A stretch of DNA of 18,529 bases from assembly GCA_900757695.1 (NCBI GenBank), contig CAAEOU010000291.1:1-18529 (forward strand), given 5' to 3'. Under the pieces are notes generated by a model. It worked only from the letters and a program-made list of their open reading frames with translations. It searched no databases and had not been told where the DNA came from. This DNA is from an uncultured Oscillospiraceae bacterium. Its GTDB lineage: Bacteria; Bacillota_A; Clostridia; Oscillospirales; Oscillospiraceae. How positions within the stretch are numbered: position 1 is the stretch's first letter; each line of letters opens with the position of its first letter. Below are positions 4,929-18,494 of this stretch, piece after piece. A program made the position numbers and the translations under genes.

Positions 4929-5405
4929 CTATTTATGATATTTACTGCCCGCTAAAATGCTTTCTGCCCGATACAGTTGTTCCAATGCCATGACCCGGCA
5001 CAGATGATGGGGAAATGTCATAGGGCTGATACTCAGTCGAAAATCTCCCTGCGCTTTCAGCTGCGCATCGATTCCAAAGGAAGAGCCCATCAGGAAAACC
5101 AATTCTGACTTTCCCGAAAGCCGTACCTGTGATAATTTTTCTGCCAGCGCCTCAGAGGACATAAGCTTTCCCTCCGGGGTCAAAACACAGAGCCATGCAT
5201 TTTTCGGGAGCTTTTGGCGGACTGCCTCAGCTTCCTTTTTCAGTGCCGCATCGATCTGCGTTCTGGATGGATTGTCCGGCAGCCGCACCTCCGGCAATTC
5301 AATGATCTGAATACCGCCATAGGATTTCAGGCGTTTTTCATATTCCGCCACTGCCTGCCGGTAAAAGGGCTCTTTCAGCTTTCCTGTTGCAATCAGCATC
5401 AGCAT
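4929..5405 (-). CDS. rlmH: 23S rRNA (pseudouridine1915-N3)-methyltransferase RlmH
   Basis: SPOUT-class SAM-dependent methyltransferase acting on helix 69 of 23S rRNA in the assembled 70S ribosome. At 158 residues it is full length. It starts with the family's IATGKLKE segment and ends with the invariant block SPMTFPHHL...EQLYRAESILAGSKYHK that forms the trefoil knot SAM site; the glycine loop reads FLMGSSFG where FVIGGSxG is usual. The start ATG overlaps the stop of the upstream kinase-like gene by seven bases, so translation is coupled. It is the last gene of the operon, directly before the terminator. Confidence 0.97.
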   Translation of the reverse strand: MLMLIATGKLKEPFYRQAVAEYEKRLKSYGGIQIIELPEVRLPDNPSRTQIDAALKKEAEAVRQKLPKNAWLCVLTPEGKLMSSEALAEKLSQVRLSGKSELVFLMGSSFGIDAQLKAQGDFRLSISPMTFPHHLCRVMALEQLYRAESILAGSKYHK

Positions 5406-5917
5406 GTCTTCCGCCGCTCCAGCTCCGCCACGATCTGATCCACCATGTTCTCAATATCATTGCGATTGGGATCCGCCTCAATGGTGATCTCTGCCCAGCT
5501 CTCATAAATGGGAACACGCTGGGCATAGAGGGTATCCAGACTCTCTCCCGGCCCAAAGGCAATGCCTCTGGTTTTGATATTACTGAGCCGGTTTCGGAGT
5601 TCCTCCAGACCGACCTTTAAGTAGATCACAGTACCGATCTCTTTCATATGGCCCATGGCCTCCGGCTCCAGCGGAACGGATCCGCCGGTGGCCACCACGG
5701 TATGATGGGGGTTGAGGCCGCAGATCACCCGGTTTTCGATCTCCAGAAAGGCATCTTTACCCTGATGATCCAGAATATCCTGCAACGTTGTCCCGGTCTC
5801 TTTGCAGATTTCAAGATCCCCATCCACAAAATCCATTGCCAGCGTCTTTGCCAGAATCACGCCGATGGTGCTTTTTCCGGCGCCGGGCATTCCGATCAAA
5901 ATCAGATTATCCTTCAC
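5399..5917 (-). CDS. Shikimate-kinase-like P-loop kinase with altered substrate site
   Basis: 172 residues, the usual length for the shikimate kinase fold. Walker A GMPGAGKST (9-17), the DGD acid pair (32, 34), TRG in the lid (116-118) and the QRVPIY segment (133-138) are all in register with AroK. However the shikimate-binding arginine expected at position 58 is leucine (AFLEIE), and the GGG loop is shortened to ATGGSV (76-81). ATP binding looks intact; use of shikimate does not. It may phosphorylate another small molecule. GTG start with GGAGG six to seven bases upstream, lying inside the end of the preceding gene; the 3' end overlaps rlmH. No other shikimate-pathway genes are in the window. 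Confidence 0.8.
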   Translation of the reverse strand: MKDNLILIGMPGAGKSTIGVILAKTLAMDFVDGDLEICKETGTTLQDILDHQGKDAFLEIENRVICGLNPHHTVVATGGSVPLEPEAMGHMKEIGTVIYLKVGLEELRNRLSNIKTRGIAFGPGESLDTLYAQRVPIYESWAEITIEADPNRNDIENMVDQIVAELERRKTC

Positions 5918-5918
5918 G

Positions 5919-6551
5919 TTAATCCTCCAAGTAATAGATAATATACCACATGCCCTGTTCTCCGTTTTTGTTGCTTACCAGCGTCATCGTGGTATCCTTC
6001 TGATCTGCCAGCACTGTCTCCGTATCGTCATAGGCAATGCCAACATAACCTGCGTCATCATAATAGAGATAGTAGTATACTACATGATCCTCTACCGCAA
6101 TATTCCACAGCCGCAGATCATCAATGGCCGTCCCCGCTGAGTTTTCCACCCCATAGAGCGCATCCTGGGTATTCATCAGCTGGATCAGGGAACGCTGAAG
6201 CTCCTGATCCTCTGCAAACAGCACAGAAATATCCTGATAGCTTCCATCATACCACGCCAGCATATGATCCCCATTTTTACTGCCATAAAGCCGCAGTCCA
6301 TTCATATTGCGCAGCTCCTGCGCCGTATCCATATAGGAATCCAGTTGATTTGGGTCTGTAAACACGGTTTTTGCTGCTGTCATATAGTCTGTGTAGGTGG
6401 TAGTGTTAATGATGGAATCGTCTGTTCCAAACAATGCTCCCAGGGCATTGCCCAGAAACATACCAATCAGAAACGCCACGATTACAGAAAACACCGCCAC
6501 CGCCATGGTTTTGGGAAAGGGATTTTCTTCTTTGGGAAATTTAATATCCAT
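5919..6551 (-). CDS. Single-pass membrane protein of unknown function
   Basis: I do not recognise a family. The 210-residue product has a short charged N-terminus (1-15), one strong hydrophobic segment (about 16-42, rich in A, V, F and G) and an acidic, tyrosine-rich domain of about 165 residues, likely outside the cell, anchored by the uncleaved helix. The C-terminal part contains alternating strands (VVYYYLYYDDAGYVGIAYDD) suggesting a beta-rich fold. It begins 3 bp after the mscL stop and ends 1 bp before the kinase-like start, so it is firmly inside the operon. Ribosome site AAGGAA lies in the end of mscL. Confidence 0.8.
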   Translation of the reverse strand: MDIKFPKEENPFPKTMAVAVFSVIVAFLIGMFLGNALGALFGTDDSIINTTTYTDYMTAAKTVFTDPNQLDSYMDTAQELRNMNGLRLYGSKNGDHMLAWYDGSYQDISVLFAEDQELQRSLIQLMNTQDALYGVENSAGTAIDDLRLWNIAVEDHVVYYYLYYDDAGYVGIAYDDTETVLADQKDTTMTLVSNKNGEQGMWYIIYYLED

Positions 6552-6554
6552 GAA

Positions 6555-6926
6555 TTACTTTTCCTTCAGCATGTCGCGGATCTCTGTCAGCAGTTCTTCT
6601 GCTGTAGGGCCCGCAGGTTCCTCCGGTTCTTCTTTCTTCGGTGCAACACGGTTTACGATCTTAACGATCCAGAATACCACAAATGTCGTGATCAGGAAGG
6701 TGACGATGGCGTTGATCACCGCACCAATTCCAAAGGGTCCAACGGTAATTCCAGAAAAATCCGTTTTTCCCATAATTAATGCAATAATTGGTGTCAGAAG
6801 ATTTTCCACTACAGAGGTGACAATGGCCGTGAAGGCAGAACCAATTACAACGCCTACTGCCATATCCAAAACATTTCCGCGCATAATAAAAGTTTTGAAC
6901 TCAGAGACCCATCCAGACTTTTTCAT
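6555..6926 (-). CDS. mscL: Large-conductance mechanosensitive channel MscL
   Basis: 123 residues, close to the family norm. It shows the N-terminal amphipathic helix (EFKTFIMRGNVLDMAVGVVIGSAF, about 9-32), the pore helix TM1 continuing into VENLLTPIIA, a short periplasmic loop (GKTDFSG), TM2 (about 68-90) and a cytoplasmic helix ending in EELLTEIRDMLKEK. The protein forms a homopentameric membrane pore that opens under membrane tension during osmotic downshock. AAGGAGG lies seven bases before the ATG. It starts 15 bp after the serS stop. Confidence 0.97.
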   Translation of the reverse strand: MKKSGWVSEFKTFIMRGNVLDMAVGVVIGSAFTAIVTSVVENLLTPIIALIMGKTDFSGITVGPFGIGAVINAIVTFLITTFVVFWIVKIVNRVAPKKEEPEEPAGPTAEELLTEIRDMLKEK

Positions 6927-6941
6927 GGAATATCCTCCTTT

Positions 6942-8249
6942 TTACTTCTTCTTTGGAACCAGCTTTTCCTTGCCGCCCATATAGGGACGCAGCACCTCCG
7001 GGATCAGGACGGAACCATCCTCCTGCAGGTTGTTCTCCAAAAATGCAATCAGCATTCTGGGAGGTGCAACGCAGGTGTTGTTCAGCGTGTGCGCCAGCTG
7101 CATCTTGCCGTTCTCATCCTTGTAACGGATCTTCAGGCGGCGAGCCTGTGCATCCCCCAGGTTAGAACAGGAGCAGACCTCAAAATATTTCTGCTGGCGG
7201 GGGCTCCAAGCCTCAATATCACAGGACTTTACCTTCAGATCAGCCAGATCACCGGAGCAGCACTCCAGCTGACGTACCGGAATATCCATGGAGCGGAACA
7301 GCTCAACAGACAGCTTCCAGAGCTTTTCATACCAGTCCTTGCTCTCTTCCGGCTTGCAGACCACGATCATTTCCTGCTTTTCGAACTGATGGATCCGGTA
7401 AACACCGCGCTCCTCAATGCCATGGGAGCCCTTTTCCTTCCGGAAGCAGGGGGAATAGGAGGTCAGGGTCAGCGGCAGCTGCTCAGCGGGAAGGATCTGG
7501 TCAATAAAGCGGCCGATCATGGAATGCTCAGAGGTGCCGATCAGATAGAGATCCTCACCTTCGATCTTATACATCATGGCATCCATATCGGTCTGGCTCA
7601 TAACGCCCTCTACCACGTTGCCGTGAATCATGAAAGGCGGGATCACATAGGTAAAGCCCTTGTCAATCATAAAATCACGGGCATAGGCCAGAACTGCCTC
7701 ATGAAGACGTGCAATATCTCCCAGCAGATAATAGAACCCGCTGCCAGAAACACGGCCAGCGGAATCCAGATCGATTCCGTCAAAGCTCTCCATAATATCC
7801 GTGTGATAGGGAACCGGATAGTCCGGCACTTTGGGCTCACCAAAGCGCTGTACCTCAACATTATAGCTGTCATCCGGGCCAAGCGGCACGGAGGGATCGA
7901 TGATATTGGGGATTACCAGCATGATCTTATGGATCTCCGCAGCCAGCTCATCTTCCTTTTTCTCCAGCTCAGCCAGCCGGTCAGCGTCAGCCTTGACCTG
8001 TGCCTTGACCTTTTCGGCCTCTTCCAGCTTACTGGGATCCTTCTTGGCCATGCCCATGAGCTTACCGATCTGCTTAGACAGCGTGTTGCGTGCAGTACGA
8101 AGCTCCTGTGCCTCAGAAATGGCTGCACGATTCTCAGCGTCCAGTGCAATTACCTGATCCACCAGCGGGAGCTTCTCATCCTGAAACTTCTTTTTAATAT
8201 TTTCTTTTACAATGTCCGGATTTTCCCGGATAAACTTAATGTCAAGCAT
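6942..8249 (-). CDS. serS: Seryl-tRNA synthetase
   Basis: Class II synthetase, 435 residues, charging tRNA-Ser in the cytosol. The N-terminal third is the long antiparallel coiled-coil tRNA-binding arm (about 28-110, rich in K, E and A). The catalytic domain has TSEHSMIG, motif 2 as FRKEKGSHGIEERGVYRIHQFEKQE-type sequence (about 270-295), the serine-pocket region and motif 3 near the C-terminus. Motif 3 reads NNTCVAPPRMLIAFLENN instead of the common NGSGLAVGR...LEN pattern. Start: MLDIKFIREN is the canonical N-terminus, with GAGGTGG upstream. It lies 18 bp after parB. Confidence 0.97.
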   Translation of the reverse strand: MLDIKFIRENPDIVKENIKKKFQDEKLPLVDQVIALDAENRAAISEAQELRTARNTLSKQIGKLMGMAKKDPSKLEEAEKVKAQVKADADRLAELEKKEDELAAEIHKIMLVIPNIIDPSVPLGPDDSYNVEVQRFGEPKVPDYPVPYHTDIMESFDGIDLDSAGRVSGSGFYYLLGDIARLHEAVLAYARDFMIDKGFTYVIPPFMIHGNVVEGVMSQTDMDAMMYKIEGEDLYLIGTSEHSMIGRFIDQILPAEQLPLTLTSYSPCFRKEKGSHGIEERGVYRIHQFEKQEMIVVCKPEESKDWYEKLWKLSVELFRSMDIPVRQLECCSGDLADLKVKSCDIEAWSPRQQKYFEVCSCSNLGDAQARRLKIRYKDENGKMQLAHTLNNTCVAPPRMLIAFLENNLQEDGSVLIPEVLRPYMGGKEKLVPKKK

Positions 8250-8267
8250 GTTTTTCCACCTCGTAAT

Positions 8268-9140
8268 TTATTTGCGGCCCAGAGCCTCCAGCGCATCCAT
8301 CAGCTGCTGAAGATCCTCCTGTCCGTAGTATTCCAACTGAAAAATACCCTTTTTCTTACCGGGCTGAATGTGTACGCCCCGCCCCAATCGTTTGCTGAGG
8401 CTCTTTTCACACTCTTTATAATAGTCTACCCTTAAAATGCTCTCAGGCTCCGGCTCTGTCTGCGGTTTCAGCATTCGTTTGATCAGTGCCTCCGTCTGGC
8501 GGACTGACAGCTGCTGCTCCATAATTTTTTGAGCCGCTTCCTTTTGCAATTCTTCTGAGGGCAGGGGAATCAGCGCTCTGGCATGGCCGGCAGACAGGCT
8601 GCCATCCTCAACCAGTAATACAATGGCTTTTGGGAGCTTCAGCAGACGCAGCGCATTTGCCACCGCAGGTCTTGATTTTCCAACACTTTTTGCCGCTTCC
8701 TCCTGACTCATGCCAAAGCTCGTTATCAGGGCCTCATAGCCCCGTGCTTCTTCCATGGGATTCAGATCTTCTCGCTGCAAATTTTCAATCAGCGTTAGTT
8801 CCGCTGCGGTCTGGTCATCCGCCTCGATGATATTTACAGGCACCTCTTTCAGCCCAGCCAATCTGGATGCACGCCACCTGCGTTCGCCAGCAATGATCTG
8901 ATAGTAGCCGTTTTCCATTTGGCGCACCGCAATTGGCTGAATCAGTCCATGCTCTGAAATGGAAGCCGCCAGTTCTCCCAGAGCTTCTTCATCAAAGTCT
9001 CTTCTAGGCTGCGCACGATTGGGTTCCAGCTTTTGAATGGGGAGTACCTGGATCTGCTTCTGTGGCTCTACCGGTGTGACCGGATCTGCAAACAGTGCCC
9101 CAAGGCCTTTTCCCAGTCCCTTCTGGCTTGATTTTGCCAT
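8268..9140 (-). CDS. parB: Chromosome partitioning protein ParB (Spo0J)
   Basis: 290-residue DNA-sliding clamp and CTPase that loads at parS and spreads over origin-proximal DNA. Visible parts: the basic N-terminal tail with GLGKGLGALF, which stimulates ParA; the CTP-binding domain with GERRWRAS (85-92) and the ENLQRED box (119-125); the parS-reading helix-turn-helix around SQEEAAKSVGKSRPAVANALRLL (145-167); and a C-terminal dimerisation segment. AAGGAG lies eight bases before the ATG. It follows parA after 65 bp that contain a perfect parS. Confidence 0.97.
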   Translation of the reverse strand: MAKSSQKGLGKGLGALFADPVTPVEPQKQIQVLPIQKLEPNRAQPRRDFDEEALGELAASISEHGLIQPIAVRQMENGYYQIIAGERRWRASRLAGLKEVPVNIIEADDQTAAELTLIENLQREDLNPMEEARGYEALITSFGMSQEEAAKSVGKSRPAVANALRLLKLPKAIVLLVEDGSLSAGHARALIPLPSEELQKEAAQKIMEQQLSVRQTEALIKRMLKPQTEPEPESILRVDYYKECEKSLSKRLGRGVHIQPGKKKGIFQLEYYGQEDLQQLMDALEALGRK

Positions 9141-9178
9141 AGAACCGCTCCTTTATGGTGATGTCCGCCGACTTTTGA

Positions 9179-9194
9179 TGTTTCACGTGAAACA
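9179..9194. promoter_or_regulatory. parS site 1 (between parA and parB)
   Basis: The palindrome TGTTTCACGTGAAACA matches the Firmicute parS consensus TGTTNCACGTGAAACA at all positions. It lies in the 65-bp parA-parB gap. Confidence 0.97.
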
Positions 9195-9205
9195 TCTCCA
9201 TCAGC

Positions 9206-9958
9206 TTATACTGATTTTTGGATGATTTCCTTTGCCAGATTCATATAGCTCTCAGCGCCACGGCTATACTTATCATAGGATGTAATGGGCATGCCGTGGC
9301 TTGGCGCCTCACTGAGCCGGACATTTCGAGGAATGACCGTTGCAAACACCTTTCCGGGGAAATGCCTCCGTACCTCCTGTGCTACCTGCATACTGAGGTT
9401 GGTACGACCATCATACATGGTAAGCGCCAATCCAAAGATGCCGATATCAGGCTGATAGGTGCGTTTTACTGCTCGAAGTGTCCCCATCAAGTCACTAAGC
9501 CCCTCCAGCGCATAATATTCGCATTGTACCGGAACGATGACTTGATCCGCTGCTGTAAGTGCATTCAATGTCAGTAACTCCAGTGACGGGGGGCAATCAA
9601 TGAAAATATAATCATATTCCTTTTTCAGTGGCTCCAGCTTATCCTTCAGACGAAATTCACGGCGTTCCAGACTGACCAATTCAATACCGGCACCAGCCAG
9701 TGCTGCACCTGAAGGGATCAAGTCACCATACTCCGTATGAATGACAGCATCCTTCGCCGGAACATCATTAATAATGACGTCATAGACCGAGCTGGCCACA
9801 TCGTTCTTTTCGACTCCAAGGCCGGATGTAGCATTGGCCTGCGGGTCAAAGTCACATAGCAGCACCCGTTTTCCCAGCGCCGTCATTGCTGCCGTCAGGC
9901 TTACAGCAGTGGTGGTTTTTCCCACACCGCCTTTCTGGTTAACCAGCGACAAGATCAT
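9206..9958 (-). CDS. parA: Chromosome partitioning ATPase ParA (Soj)
   Basis: 250-residue deviant Walker-type ATPase. KGGVGKTTT (9-17) is the Walker A motif with the signature lysine, LLCDFDPQANAT (33-44) the A' motif, and YIFIDCPPSL the Walker B strand. It works with ParB on origin segregation and control of initiation. The open frame reaches back to a TTG at 10066, but the real start is the ATG at 9958: it gives the standard MILSLVNQKGG N-terminus, has AAGGAGG seven bases upstream, and the predicted transcription start (about 10010) lies downstream of most of that extension. Confidence 0.97.
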   Translation of the reverse strand: MILSLVNQKGGVGKTTTAVSLTAAMTALGKRVLLCDFDPQANATSGLGVEKNDVASSVYDVIINDVPAKDAVIHTEYGDLIPSGAALAGAGIELVSLERREFRLKDKLEPLKKEYDYIFIDCPPSLELLTLNALTAADQVIVPVQCEYYALEGLSDLMGTLRAVKRTYQPDIGIFGLALTMYDGRTNLSMQVAQEVRRHFPGKVFATVIPRNVRLSEAPSHGMPITSYDKYSRGAESYMNLAKEIIQKSV

Positions 9959-10016
9959 TTTTCCGGCCTCCTTCTCCTGACACACAGCTTTACTGTGCTG
10001 TTTTTTAGGCTTTTTT

Positions 10017-10045
10017 ATTATAACAACTACTGTATCACAATGCAA
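10017..10045 (-). promoter_or_regulatory. Predicted promoter of the parA operon
   Basis: Minus strand TTGCAT (10045-10040), 17-bp spacer, TATAAT (10022-10017). The start would lie near 10010, about 50 nt before the parA ATG. It is the only clear leftward promoter upstream of the seven-gene operon, and parS site 2 sits 24 bp upstream of its -35 box. Confidence 0.75.
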
Positions 10046-10068
10046 GGGATTTGTCCCCCTGCTCAAAA

Positions 10069-11616: not shown

Positions 11617-12069
11617 ATGATAATTGCAACCATGAATCATGAAACGGTGGAAGCCGTGGCGCAATTGGAATCCCAATGCTTCTCCACGCCATGGAGCCAT
11701 GGGGATTTGATCCATGAATTGGACAATCCATGGGCCATCTGGCTTACTGCCACCGAAAACGACAAGCTGGCAGGATATCTGGGTATTCAATACGGGCCAG
11801 ACGGCGCAGATATCATGTCCATCGCCACAGAACCAGCCTTTCGGGGGAAAGGCGTTGCAAAACTGCTGCTGCAAGAAATGGAACAGCGGCTGATTGCGCT
11901 GTCCCTGCAATGGATCACATTGGAGGTGCGCCCTTCCAATGCCTCCGCACTGGCGCTTTATAAGAGTCTGGGTTTTCAACAGGTTGGCAGACGGCCCCGT
12001 TACTATCAAAAACCCACAGAGGACGCCCTGCTGCTGACAAAATATTTTAAGGAGGAACCCACATGCTGA
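11617..12069 (+). CDS. rimI: Ribosomal protein bS18-alanine N-acetyltransferase RimI
   Basis: GNAT acetyltransferase of 150 residues. It has the RimI N-terminal pattern E-x-x-CF-x-x-PWS (18-27), the acetyl-CoA pyrophosphate loop RGKGVAKLLL (76-85), the catalytic glutamate in TLEVRPSNASALALYKSLGF (101-120) and the conserved tyrosine at 115. It acetylates the N-terminus of S18 in characterised bacteria and is commonly paired with tsaD. The open frame begins earlier at a TTG (11584) inside the VOC gene; the ATG at 11617 gives the family N-terminus although its ribosome site (AGGAG 16 bases upstream) is distant. Its stop overlaps the tsaD start by seven bases. Confidence 0.9.
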   Translation: MIIATMNHETVEAVAQLESQCFSTPWSHGDLIHELDNPWAIWLTATENDKLAGYLGIQYGPDGADIMSIATEPAFRGKGVAKLLLQEMEQRLIALSLQWITLEVRPSNASALALYKSLGFQQVGRRPRYYQKPTEDALLLTKYFKEEPTC

Positions 12070-13097
12070 TTTTGGGAATCGAGAGCTCTTGTGATGAAAC
12101 AGCCCTTTCCGTGTCACGGGGCGGACGTGAGATACTGTCAAACTGCGTTTTAAGTCAGATCGATATGCACACCATCTATGGGGGTGTTGTGCCGGAAATT
12201 GCATCCAGAAAACATATCGAAGCCATTACCGGTCTTGCAGATGAAGCAATCAAACAGGCTGGCATTACCAAGGCTGATTTGGATGCCATCGCCGTTACCT
12301 ATGCACCGGGTCTCATCGGTGCGCTCCTGGTGGGTGTAAACTTTGCAAAAGCCGCCGCATTGGCACTGAATATTCCAATTATTCCGGTGCATCATATTCG
12401 TGGCCATATCGCTGCAAACTATATTGCATTTCCGGAATTGGAACCGCCCTTTGTATGCCTCAGTGTCTCCGGCGGAAATACGCTGATTCTGGATGTACGG
12501 GATTACACCGATACCCGAATCATGGGTTCCAGCCGGGATGACGCAGCAGGGGAGTGCTTTGACAAGGTTGCCCGTGTCCTCGGTATGCCCTATCCCGGTG
12601 GAAAAGCACTGGACGATAAAAGCAAAACAGGGGATCCCTCTGCCTACCATTTGCCCCGTTCCAAAGTGGATGGCGCTCCACTGGACATGAGCTTTTCCGG
12701 TCTGAAAACCGCCGCATTGAATATCATTCACAATGCCCAGCAAAAGGGGGAGGAACTGAATATTCCCGATCTCTGTGCCAGCTTTGTCTCCGCAGTACAG
12801 GATACATTGGTTCCCAGAACCATGGAAGCACTGAAGATCACCGGCTATCAAAAGCTTGCCATTGCCGGGGGTGTTGCAGCCAATTCCCACATTCGCAGTG
12901 CCTTTGAACGGGAGTGCAAAACCTGCGGCGCATCCCTTTACATGCCGCCTTTAAGCCTTTGCGGCGATAACGGTGCCATGATTGCCTGCCAAGGCTACTA
13001 TGAGTATTTGGCTGGGCATATTGCCGGTCAGGAGCTCAATGCCATTGCATCGCTCTCCGCAGAAAAAGGCAGCTACCATTTTGCGCCTGCGTTTTAA
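12063..13097 (+). CDS. tsaD: tRNA N6-adenosine threonylcarbamoyltransferase TsaD
   Basis: 344 residues, standard length. ASKHA-fold protein that transfers the threonylcarbamoyl group to A37 of ANN-decoding tRNAs together with TsaB and TsaE. It starts MLILGIESSCDETA, has the metal-binding HHIRGH (H111 and H115), SVSGGNT (134-140), the CFDKVAR and PYPGG segments and a C-terminal IAGGVAAN and CGDNGAMIA. AAGGAGG lies seven bases before the ATG; the start overlaps rimI. In many Firmicutes tsaE and tsaB precede rimI-tsaD; here lysR and a VOC gene occupy that place, so tsaB/tsaE must be elsewhere. Confidence 0.98.
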   Translation: MLILGIESSCDETALSVSRGGREILSNCVLSQIDMHTIYGGVVPEIASRKHIEAITGLADEAIKQAGITKADLDAIAVTYAPGLIGALLVGVNFAKAAALALNIPIIPVHHIRGHIAANYIAFPELEPPFVCLSVSGGNTLILDVRDYTDTRIMGSSRDDAAGECFDKVARVLGMPYPGGKALDDKSKTGDPSAYHLPRSKVDGAPLDMSFSGLKTAALNIIHNAQQKGEELNIPDLCASFVSAVQDTLVPRTMEALKITGYQKLAIAGGVAANSHIRSAFERECKTCGASLYMPPLSLCGDNGAMIACQGYYEYLAGHIAGQELNAIASLSAEKGSYHFAPAF

Positions 13098-13415
13098 TTA
13101 TCCATATTATTCCATTTATTTAGTAGATTACATGGAAAATCACGTTGTATGAAGGAAAATATTCTTGAAATTTGGTATTATTTTACTTGACAAGAAAAAT
13201 TTCAGCTTTTTATGTCAACTAAACTTATCCCCACACTGGTGTAAAACTATTGTGGATAATACTGTGGATAATCTGGAAAACCCCATAATAACCGGTGGAA
13301 TTCATGGGGATAACTGTGGATAACTCTGTGGAAACTGTGGATAACTTTTGCACAACCCCTTTCTTGTATAATTTATGTAAACAAAATGCGATTCTACTCT
13401 AAAAAGTTTTCCACA
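13098..13415. other. DnaA-box cluster in AT-rich non-coding DNA (candidate oriC or DnaA-binding locus)
   Basis: About 420 bp separate tsaD from the tRNA gene and no gene is seen in them. Four exact copies of TGTGGATAA (reverse complement of the DnaA box TTATCCACA) lie at 13251-13259, 13263-13271, 13315-13323 and 13336-13344, all in the same orientation. One-mismatch boxes lie at 13098-13106 (TTATCCATA), 13225-13233 (TTATCCCCA), 13305-13313 (TGGGGATAA), 13346-13354 (TTTTGCACA) and 13407-13415 (TTTTCCACA). The cluster is flanked by AT-rich DNA (13098-13220 and 13355-13410) that could serve as an unwinding element. This density is origin-like. dnaA itself is not in the window, so a secondary DnaA-titrating or regulatory site is also possible. 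Confidence 0.75.
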
Positions 13416-13473
13416 GGCATTCTGCATTATTAGAATCTTTCACCTTCATTTCCAGCAAATTTATGATCCGGGG

Positions 13474-13502
13474 TTGACGTGAAACCCGATTCATGGTAAA
13501 AT
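13474..13502 (+). promoter_or_regulatory. Promoter of tRNA-Thr
   Basis: TTGACG (13474-13479), 17-bp spacer, TAAAAT (13497-13502) preceded by TGG as an extended -10. The start near 13509 is about 8 nt before the mature tRNA. Confidence 0.8.
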
Positions 13503-13516
13503 AGTCAAGATAAATT

Positions 13517-13591
13517 GCTGATGTGGCTCAATGGCAGAGCATCTCACTCGTAATGAGAAGGTTGTGGGTTCGATTCCCACCATCAGCTCCA
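13517..13591 (+). tRNA. tRNA-Thr (anticodon CGT)
   Basis: Complete cloverleaf: 7-bp acceptor GCTGATG (13517-13523) with CATCAGC (13581-13587), D stem GCTC/GAGC, anticodon stem TCTCA/TGAGA with loop CTCGTAA (anticodon CGT at 13549-13551, reading the threonine codon ACG), five-base variable loop, T stem GTGGG/CCCAC with loop TTCGATT, discriminator T, and encoded CCA at 13589-13591. Its ANN codon makes it a substrate for the t6A pathway to which the upstream tsaD belongs. Confidence 0.97.
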
Positions 13592-16760: not shown

Positions 16761-18494
16761 ATGAAGAAAACAATTTGCCGGATCATTTCCGGCTTGTTGG
16801 TCGCTGTCATCGCATTGGCGGCTATGGCGGTTCCTGCTATGGCGGCCGATGACTTTGTTGATGTTCCATCCAATGCATGGTATTTTGATACCGTGGAATT
16901 TGCGGCTGCACACGATCTGGTAAACGGTACATCCGAAACGACATTCTCTCCAAACAGCAATATTTCCAGAGCACAATTTGTCACTATTCTTTACCGTGCT
17001 TTTGGTGCAAACGAAGTAATCAACCCCAGCTGGGAATTTTCCGATGTTCCTGCCTCCAGCTATTATCGTGATGCTGTTTATTGGGGACTCAACTATGGTA
17101 TTGTTTACGGCACTGGTAATTATACTTTCTCTCCCAAGAAGGACATTACCCGGCAGGAAGCAGTTGTAATGCTTGGGAGAACAATCACACAGCTGTCCAT
17201 CAACATTGTAGATGCCGATAACCCGACTTTGGAATTCTCAGATGCAGACATAATTGCCGACTGGGCAATGGATTCTGTTGACCTGATGCGGCAAAAGGCC
17301 CTGATTACTGGCTATACCGATGGTACATTTCGCCCCAAAAAGAACATGACAAGAGCCGAAGGTACAACGATACTGGTTCGGTTTGTGCAGGCAGCTACCG
17401 AGCCGCCGGAACGTCCAAAGGATATTGATCAGATTCACTTTATTAGCCTGCATGGTGCAGCCAGTGATTCTACGCTCGTAGAAAGTCAAGGGAAGTATAT
17501 GCTGGTGGACGCTGGAAACCCGGATGCATCTGTTGGCGGAAATTACGCCGTTGAAGACAATCGTTACAATGGTGACGCTGTTGTTTCCTATCTTCGCAGC
17601 ATCGGTGTGACCCATCTTGATTATCTGGTCATGACCCATAACCATTCCGATCATATCGGCGGCGTTCCGCTTCTTTGTAAAAACGGATTTGTTGGTTCCA
17701 ATACCACCGTATATTATCGCACCAACAAACGTACCGATGAAGACACCCAAACAGACTATCAAAATGTGGAATATCTCACTGCTGCACTTGATAGCTTAGA
17801 GTCTGTAAATGCCAATATCATCAGCCTCTTGGACACCAATACTACCGAATTGTCCTTCGATATGGGTAATTTCCATATTGATTTCAGAAATCTGGATGAA
17901 GACCATGATGGTAAAGTTGATTTTTGCACAGAAGATGAAAATAGAAATTCCATTGTTCTGAAAATCACAAAGGGTGATTTTTCCGCGCTCTTGGCCGCTG
18001 ACCTCGATCTGGCTGGTGAAAAAAAACTTTTGGAAAACGGCGACCTGTCAGACATCGACATTCTTAAATTAAGCCATCACGGCTACAACACCTCTAATTC
18101 CTTCTACTGGCTCGACACAATTCATCCATCTGCAACGGTTTTGACAAGAGACCAATGGTATACCGGAGAAAATGACGGTATGGTGTCTTACGCTTGTCTC
18201 AAGGATAAAAGGATCCCCGTATACGCTTGTGATAGTCAGAAAAAGGCAATCATTGTTGATATTCAGGATGATAACTATACAATATATGATATTAACAACT
18301 TGTTTTCCAAAGTAGCAGCAGCCGAGCTTACACAGCCAATTGCAGATGGTTTTTATTATTGGTCTGAAAAATTTATTGGCGAGAAAAATGCTGTAAAAAT
18401 TGAAGATGGAAAAATGGTTAAGGACGATTCTCGTACGAATGACGCTGGTGAAACCTATCACTTCGATCACAATGGCATTGGCACTATGCAATAA
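16761..18494 (+). CDS. Secreted S-layer-homology protein with ComEC-like metallo-beta-lactamase domain
   Basis: 577 residues. Signal peptide 1-28 (KKTICR, hydrophobic core, cleavage likely after AMA). Three SLH domains follow (about 31-82, 92-142, 158-210), which bind pyruvylated secondary cell-wall polymer. From about 224 to 505 is a metallo-beta-lactamase fold of the ComEC/Rec2 C-terminal group: LVDAGN (D250), MTHNHSDHIGG (H293, H295, D297, H298), LLAADL (D414) and LSHHG (H439, H440). Family members cleave phosphodiester or related bonds; the substrate here is unknown. A loop with D379, D381, D383, G384 and D387 matches a calcium-binding DxDxDGxxD loop. The C-terminus (about 525-577, GFYYWSEKF onward) is an aromatic tail of no clear family. 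The ribosome site (AAGGGG, 12 bases away) is poor. Likely repressed by the adjacent XRE protein. Confidence 0.92.
   Translation: MKKTICRIISGLLVAVIALAAMAVPAMAADDFVDVPSNAWYFDTVEFAAAHDLVNGTSETTFSPNSNISRAQFVTILYRAFGANEVINPSWEFSDVPASSYYRDAVYWGLNYGIVYGTGNYTFSPKKDITRQEAVVMLGRTITQLSINIVDADNPTLEFSDADIIADWAMDSVDLMRQKALITGYTDGTFRPKKNMTRAEGTTILVRFVQAATEPPERPKDIDQIHFISLHGAASDSTLVESQGKYMLVDAGNPDASVGGNYAVEDNRYNGDAVVSYLRSIGVTHLDYLVMTHNHSDHIGGVPLLCKNGFVGSNTTVYYRTNKRTDEDTQTDYQNVEYLTAALDSLESVNANIISLLDTNTTELSFDMGNFHIDFRNLDEDHDGKVDFCTEDENRNSIVLKITKGDFSALLAADLDLAGEKKLLENGDLSDIDILKLSHHGYNTSNSFYWLDTIHPSATVLTRDQWYTGENDGMVSYACLKDKRIPVYACDSQKKAIIVDIQDDNYTIYDINNLFSKVAAAELTQPIADGFYYWSEKFIGEKNAVKIEDGKMVKDDSRTNDAGETYHFDHNGIGTMQ

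Follow-up and report, generated by a model that had tools for sequence, protein, structure and literature searches.

The 18,529-nt stretch of DNA analyzed here (the window, a contig from an uncultured Oscillospiraceae bacterium) carries tsaD on the plus strand at positions 12063 to 13097 (TIGR03723, 412 bits versus a cut-off of 296). On the same strand, a tRNA search placed a tRNA-Thr gene (CGT) at 13517 to 13591. The 419-bp intergenic region between these two genes (13098 to 13516) holds a cluster of DnaA boxes and has a GC content of 33%, versus 48% for the window, in agreement with its initial annotation as a gene-free, AT-rich stretch. In a motif scan, four exact boxes (TTATCCACA) were found in this region (13251 to 13259, 13263 to 13271, 13315 to 13323 and 13336 to 13344), every one on the minus strand, and these are the only exact boxes of the whole 18.5-kb window. 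Five further boxes within 13098 to 13415 have one mismatch to TTATNCACA, one of them on the minus strand (TTATCCCCA, 13305 to 13313) and four on the plus strand (13098 to 13106; 13225 to 13233, also TTATCCCCA; 13346 to 13354, TTTTGCACA; 13407 to 13415, TTTTCCACA). The rescan thus reproduced the counts and coordinates of the initial annotation, four exact and five one-mismatch boxes, as well as the common direction that it had reported for the exact ones. Two weaker boxes on the minus strand, with two mismatches each, fill triads in which a 12-bp step is followed by a 9-bp step. In the triad at 13251 to 13280, the exact box at 13263 lies 12 bp from the one at 13251 and is abutted, at a 9-bp step, by the weak box at 13272 to 13280; in the triad at 13315 to 13344, the weak box (GTTTCCACA, 13327 to 13335) is the middle member between the exact boxes at 13315 and 13336. 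Under a first-order model, 0.010 exact TTATCCACA boxes are expected in the intergenic region and 0.16 in the entire window. When one mismatch to TTATNCACA is allowed, the entire window contains 20 matches, with a mean expectation of 15.8, and 32 of 200 shuffles reach 20. The total number of boxes in the window is ordinary, and only their clustering is unusual.

The core of the cluster (13315 to 13347) is nearly identical in the genus relatives L001, L301 and L303 and more diverged in L300, and the neighboring genes differ; window and L001 have the 33-letter core CTGTGGATAACTCTGTGGAAACTGTGGATAACT in common. The downstream neighbor is tRNA-Thr also in the genus relative G162 (L333) and tRNA-Met in G161 (L334) as well as, by sequence reading, in L001 (83% identity), where the gene order is polA (identified by eye), rimI, tsaD, boxes, tRNA-Met. 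In the genus alignment, TTATGTNAAC-like elements are present on both sides of the core. The left one, TTATGTCAAC (13210 to 13219, plus strand), includes a TGTCAA that mirrors the TTGACA at 13187 to 13192, and the right one is TTATGTAAAC (13373 to 13382, plus strand); both are conserved in the genus. The core is flanked, that is, by elements of the form TTATGT(C/A)AAC (13187 to 13219 and 13373 to 13382), the left one with TTGACA...TGTCAA arms.

The remainder of the window includes a run of genes on one strand from 4929 to 10066, namely rlmH, a shikimate-kinase-like gene, a gene for a 210-aa protein without a Pfam match, mscL, serS, parB and parA, and most of this block is also present in three genus relatives. 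The parB and parA genes occupy 8268 to 10066, and parS-like palindromes are located at 9179 (exact) and 10069 (one mismatch), about 4 and 3 kb from the cluster, so that ParA, ParB and two parS sites at a distance of 3–4 kb were correctly annotated. Likewise, the reported lack of a nearby dnaA was borne out, as there is no DnaA among the 17 scanned proteins of the window. The segment from 16761 to 18494 encodes a protein of 577 aa that includes a ComEC-like metallo-beta-lactamase part; its N-terminus appears to carry SLH-like repeats.

The association of such clusters with tsaD was analyzed in two sets of loci. For the phylum set, 149 genomes were sampled evenly across the phylum to which the complete genome G010 (Clostridiales bacterium CCNA10, L064) belongs; judging from G010, this set is presumably of the Clostridia type. 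In it, 147 tsaD loci were analyzed, and two genomes with only partial tsaD matches (G045 and G144) were left out. The Oscillospiraceae-type set consists of the best 80 of 557 confirmed TsaD loci, those closest to the window, with titles that mostly name Oscillospiraceae, Ruminococcaceae, Flavonifractor or Clostridiales. One locus occurs in both sets, as L245 in the phylum set and as L064 among the 80. A cluster was considered linked when at least two boxes (TTATCCACA, at most one mismatch) lie within 600 bp past the tsaD stop codon. In the phylum set, at least two boxes follow the stop codon in 102 of the 147 loci and at least three in 93, versus 27 and 5, respectively, of 939 control windows of 600 bp from the same loci, and 10 and 0 of 735 windows in a first-order simulation. 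After thinning by TsaD similarity, at least two boxes were found in 79 of 120 loci. Among the Oscillospiraceae-type loci (best 80 of 557), 29 of the 80 have at least two boxes, versus 15 of 1,942 controls. Box density was counted in 100-bp bins. In the phylum set, it is 17.0, 10.7 and 2.8 per kb in the three bins directly past the stop codon and 0.1–1.4 per kb in every remaining bin between −1500 and +1500. In the best 80 of 557 loci, it reaches 6.5 and 3.1 per kb from +100 to +300 bp, and one bin at −400, inside tsaD, is also elevated (2.1 per kb).

The cluster is common but not universal. Fewer than two boxes are present at 45 of the 147 phylum loci and at 51 of the 80 Oscillospiraceae-type loci (best 80 of 557), and the 15 named tsaD records that were checked, comprising 3 Clostridia, 4 Bacilli and 8 others, all have fewer than two boxes after the stop codon. 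These records are from a plasmid collection, and several of them are megabase-sized and evidently chromosomal pieces; they include Subdoligranulum, Acetoanaerobium, Monoglobus, Listeria, Enterococcus, Staphylococcus and Paenibacillus. Also in E. coli, no box lies within 600 bp after tsaD. The conservation of the boxes in relatives, proposed as a check in the initial annotation, is found in a large part of the loci and lacking in the others. In a tree built from the TsaD proteins of the 147 loci, cluster presence changes 26 times, compared with 33–44 times in 200 label shuffles; cluster presence thus follows the tree, but with frequent loss or gain. Across genomes, it is tsaD that the cluster accompanies, rather than par or dnaA.

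At the 147 phylum loci, the strand opposite tsaD carries 443 of the 492 boxes. The leading steps between consecutive boxes on the same strand (440 such boxes) are 9 bp (86 cases) and 12 bp (50 cases), followed by steps of 42–45 bp (61 together). In contrast, at 30 dnaA loci, only 2 of 195 steps are 9 bp long and 12 of 195 are 12 bp long. Distances between box pairs in the range of 13–110 bp have a period of 10.9–11.0 bp (R 0.44, n = 585; R 0.43, n = 443, after thinning to 120 loci; R 0.34 at 10.5) and leave the bins of 27–30, 59–61 and 91–94 bp empty. In these related, non-independent genomes, the boxes thus appear to share one face of the helix, which would suit cooperative assembly of DnaA. 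Searches of 29 genomes yielded 78 abutting box pairs, versus 17 matches of a reversed control pattern, and 70 pairs spaced by 21 bp in 24 of the 29 genomes (control, 15). Of the abutting pairs, 77 could be placed, one on a small contig having been left out: 25, from 17 genomes, are no more than 1.5 kb away from tsaD, 3 are at dnaA and 49 elsewhere. Abutting pairs are not exclusive to tsaD. In G010, perfect abutting pairs are found at C1 64086 and 117630, roughly 64 and 118 kb away from dnaA, and are candidate oriC-proximal clusters; two abutting pairs each, away from both tsaD and dnaA, are also present in G046 (2209497 to 2209618), G149 (3369797 to 3369837) and G134 (1254080 to 1254419).

The closest known counterpart is found in B. 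subtilis. We take gcp to be the old name of tsaD, and one plasmid record labels a TsaD match "gcp". The gcp/ydiF region of B. subtilis (region 4 in PMC4447404) is presumably one of the six clusters of Okumura 2012. In PMC4447404, this region is listed as lying downstream of gcp and downstream of ydiF and as having 10 sites, with a Kd of 0.15 μM with ATP-DnaA and of 0.33 μM with ADP-DnaA; at 55 nM, 16-fold more was bound with ATP-DnaA. The window cluster resembles it in being intergenic and directly downstream of tsaD and in the number of sites (9 here, 10 there), and both in B. subtilis and in the relatives of the window the cluster lies away from oriC. The likeness is one of position, and the next gene is a convergent ydiF in B. 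subtilis but a tRNA gene here. Four other Bacilli that were checked, unlike B. subtilis, are without the cluster. As none of the 15 named records has at least two boxes, the data do not connect the cluster and its B. subtilis counterpart by common descent. Among the matches listed in a search of titles and abstract starts of the open-licence literature, no tsaD-linked cluster outside B. subtilis was found. Clusters of DnaA boxes outside oriC, including the one in B. subtilis, were already known.

Taken together, these observations make it likely that the DnaA boxes of the window form a non-origin cluster that belongs to the 3' end of tsaD, matches the gcp/ydiF region in position and titrates DnaA. 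A titration site was one of three options in the initial annotation and has turned out to be the best supported; the nearest case is the B. subtilis region, rather than datA. On head-to-tail boxes with steps of 9, 12 and 21 bp and on one helix face, several DnaA molecules, mainly in the ATP form, would assemble together. Each passage of a replication fork through the cluster would double the number of sites and lower the level of free DnaA, and the next initiation at the true oriC, presumably beside dnaA in this organism, would be delayed or buffered. In B. subtilis, removal of six non-oriC clusters led to early initiation, which was strong only when all six were gone, and returning a single cluster relieved it partly (PMC5295017); the deletion of six clusters is also described in PMC13220808. 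In these papers, the DnaA-box clusters of B. subtilis are judged to be minor, and a 2017 review saw no significant role for them (PMC13220808, PMC5295017). If such a cluster remains next to one gene in 102 of 147 widely drawn loci, and its boxes are in phase, selection is probably acting on it, and it may matter for the control of initiation. If so, the old question of titration would become directly testable at a single locus that can be located via tsaD.

Beyond mere titration, the cluster might alter the nucleotide state of DnaA, in the manner of the E. coli sites datA (hydrolysis) or DARS (exchange), which we consider unlikely, although ordered, phased arrays on one strand would fit an oligomer. 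Also in line with such a role is a second element beside the core: TTATGT is enriched at Oscillospiraceae-type cluster loci (23 of 34, the window included, versus 10 of 122 control windows), and sites for IHF and Fis likewise accompany datA and DARS2 (PMC5295017). In the wider draw, however, the second element (TATGTNAAC) is scarce, with 10 of 147 loci and 0 of 147 control windows, and, according to a 2026 review (PMC13220808), IHF, datA and DARS are absent in B. subtilis, which also lacks Hda (PMC13220808, PMC5295017). The cluster resembles datA, a negative regulator, in having several strong DnaA boxes, probably outside oriC, and in the tRNA gene nearby (title of PMC10950094). It differs in that datA works with IHF, in that the gene context is not common to both and in that the tRNA linkage of tsaD clusters is not general. 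A tRNA gene starts within 1 kb downstream of tsaD at 0 of the 147 phylum loci and at 6 of the 80 Oscillospiraceae-type loci (best 80 of 557), and tRNA linkage as near datA was rejected as a general feature. DARS1 and DARS2 are, like the cluster as predicted from its boxes, non-coding DnaA-binding sites away from oriC; DARS regenerates ATP-DnaA, DARS2 together with IHF and Fis. A tentative and rather doubtful extension would be that the tsaD-linked cluster is an old cis-regulatory DnaA element of this large bacterial group with a role similar to datA or DARS. It would then serve as a phased, one-strand platform for DnaA assembly, joined in the Oscillospiraceae-type branch by an accessory factor acting at TTATGT(C/A)AA. 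It would usually stay 9–36% of the genome away from oriC, so that the next initiation is timed by its activity or by the moment at which it is copied.

It is quite improbable that, instead of titrating DnaA, the cluster is a site of DnaA-controlled transcription, at which bound DnaA regulates the downstream tRNA gene or limits read-through from tsaD. Its location between tsaD and tRNA-Thr, with a promoter-like site at 13474 to 13502, would be compatible with such control, and direct activation by DnaA is described for sda in B. subtilis (PMC4447404). However, the neighbor varies (tRNA-Thr, tRNA-Met or no tRNA) while the core is constant, the phylum loci are devoid of tRNA genes within the 1 kb examined, and both genes flanking the B. 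subtilis cluster end at it (PMC4447404).

In Bacillota, oriC usually adjoins dnaA. That the cluster is a working oriC, relocated from dnaA to a place beside parAB and parS, is very improbable in spite of its dense boxes in AT-rich, gene-free DNA, of parS and parAB 3–4 kb away and of the proximity of par to oriC in relatives, because similar clusters follow tsaD in genomes in which dnaA is far away, the unwinding motif lies after dnaA in three genus relatives and was not found here, par does not adjoin tsaD in these relatives, and the genes from LysR to tsaD point transcription toward the cluster, not away from it. The distance between tsaD and dnaA was 152–1141 kb, that is, 0.087–0.364 of the genome, in 29 near-complete genomes; 33 had been searched, and four were dropped because dnaA and tsaD were on separate contigs or the contig was very incomplete. 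These distances are non-uniform (KS p 5e-4), which may belong to the gene itself, and the genomes are related. Clusters in AT-rich DNA are also a feature of the bipartite clostridial origin, oriC1/oriC2 of C. difficile (PMC7561715). The C. difficile origin lies on either side of dnaA and includes DnaA-trios as well as an unwinding element, whereas no dnaA adjoins the window cluster and no trios were found in it. A motif composed of a box, a GC stretch and CTA-type DnaA-trios, of the kind described in PMC7561715 for B. subtilis and clostridial oriC2, directly follows dnaA in the three genomes of the genus of L001 in which dnaA is readable; it was detected by script in G161 and G162 and by eye in G163. 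The script, which is not exhaustive and matches at 16 of 40 other dnaA loci, found none in the window cluster; after tsaD it matched at 1 of the 147 phylum loci and at 0 of the 80 Oscillospiraceae-type loci (best 80 of 557). The pattern was composed after viewing the G162 sequence, so these counts are partly post hoc, and a first trio pattern had matched neither in the window nor beside dnaA of G162. Around dnaA, there are eight boxes in G162 and few (at most one mismatch) in G161 and G163. In G001, dnaA is cut off by the end of its contig; no box lies in the part of the upstream gap that is visible, and the downstream side is off the contig.

The suggestions of a relocated oriC or of one half of a split origin were rejected on account of the linkage to tsaD far from dnaA and the absent trio motif. 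The par neighborhood, which the initial annotation had counted in favor of an origin, was dropped as a lead: G161, G162 and G163 all have the par-serS-mscL block, but away from tsaD, and the ParB genes of the L001 genome are on contigs other than the tsaD contig. In G010, 18 samples of GC skew were positive in 8 of 8 cases at 0.3–1.7 Mb and negative in 7 of 7 at 1.9–3.1 Mb, and the remainder was mixed (positive at 3.3 Mb, negative at 3.5 and 0.1 Mb); there is no clear switch at tsaD (2.87 Mb) in these noisy samples, which are insufficient alone to place the origin. The window cluster is probably not oriC. It may still be near oriC, because the best-scoring parB lies 2.7–43 kb from dnaA in five relatives in which both are on one contig (G003, G005, G010, G011 and G012), and dnaA and tsaD are just 9.4 kb apart in the genus relative G163 (L329, 4282 to 15992), unlike in the 29 near-complete genomes. 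In G002, G007, G008 and G009, the best parB is on a different contig from dnaA, and G007 has a second parB-like gene 22 kb from dnaA.
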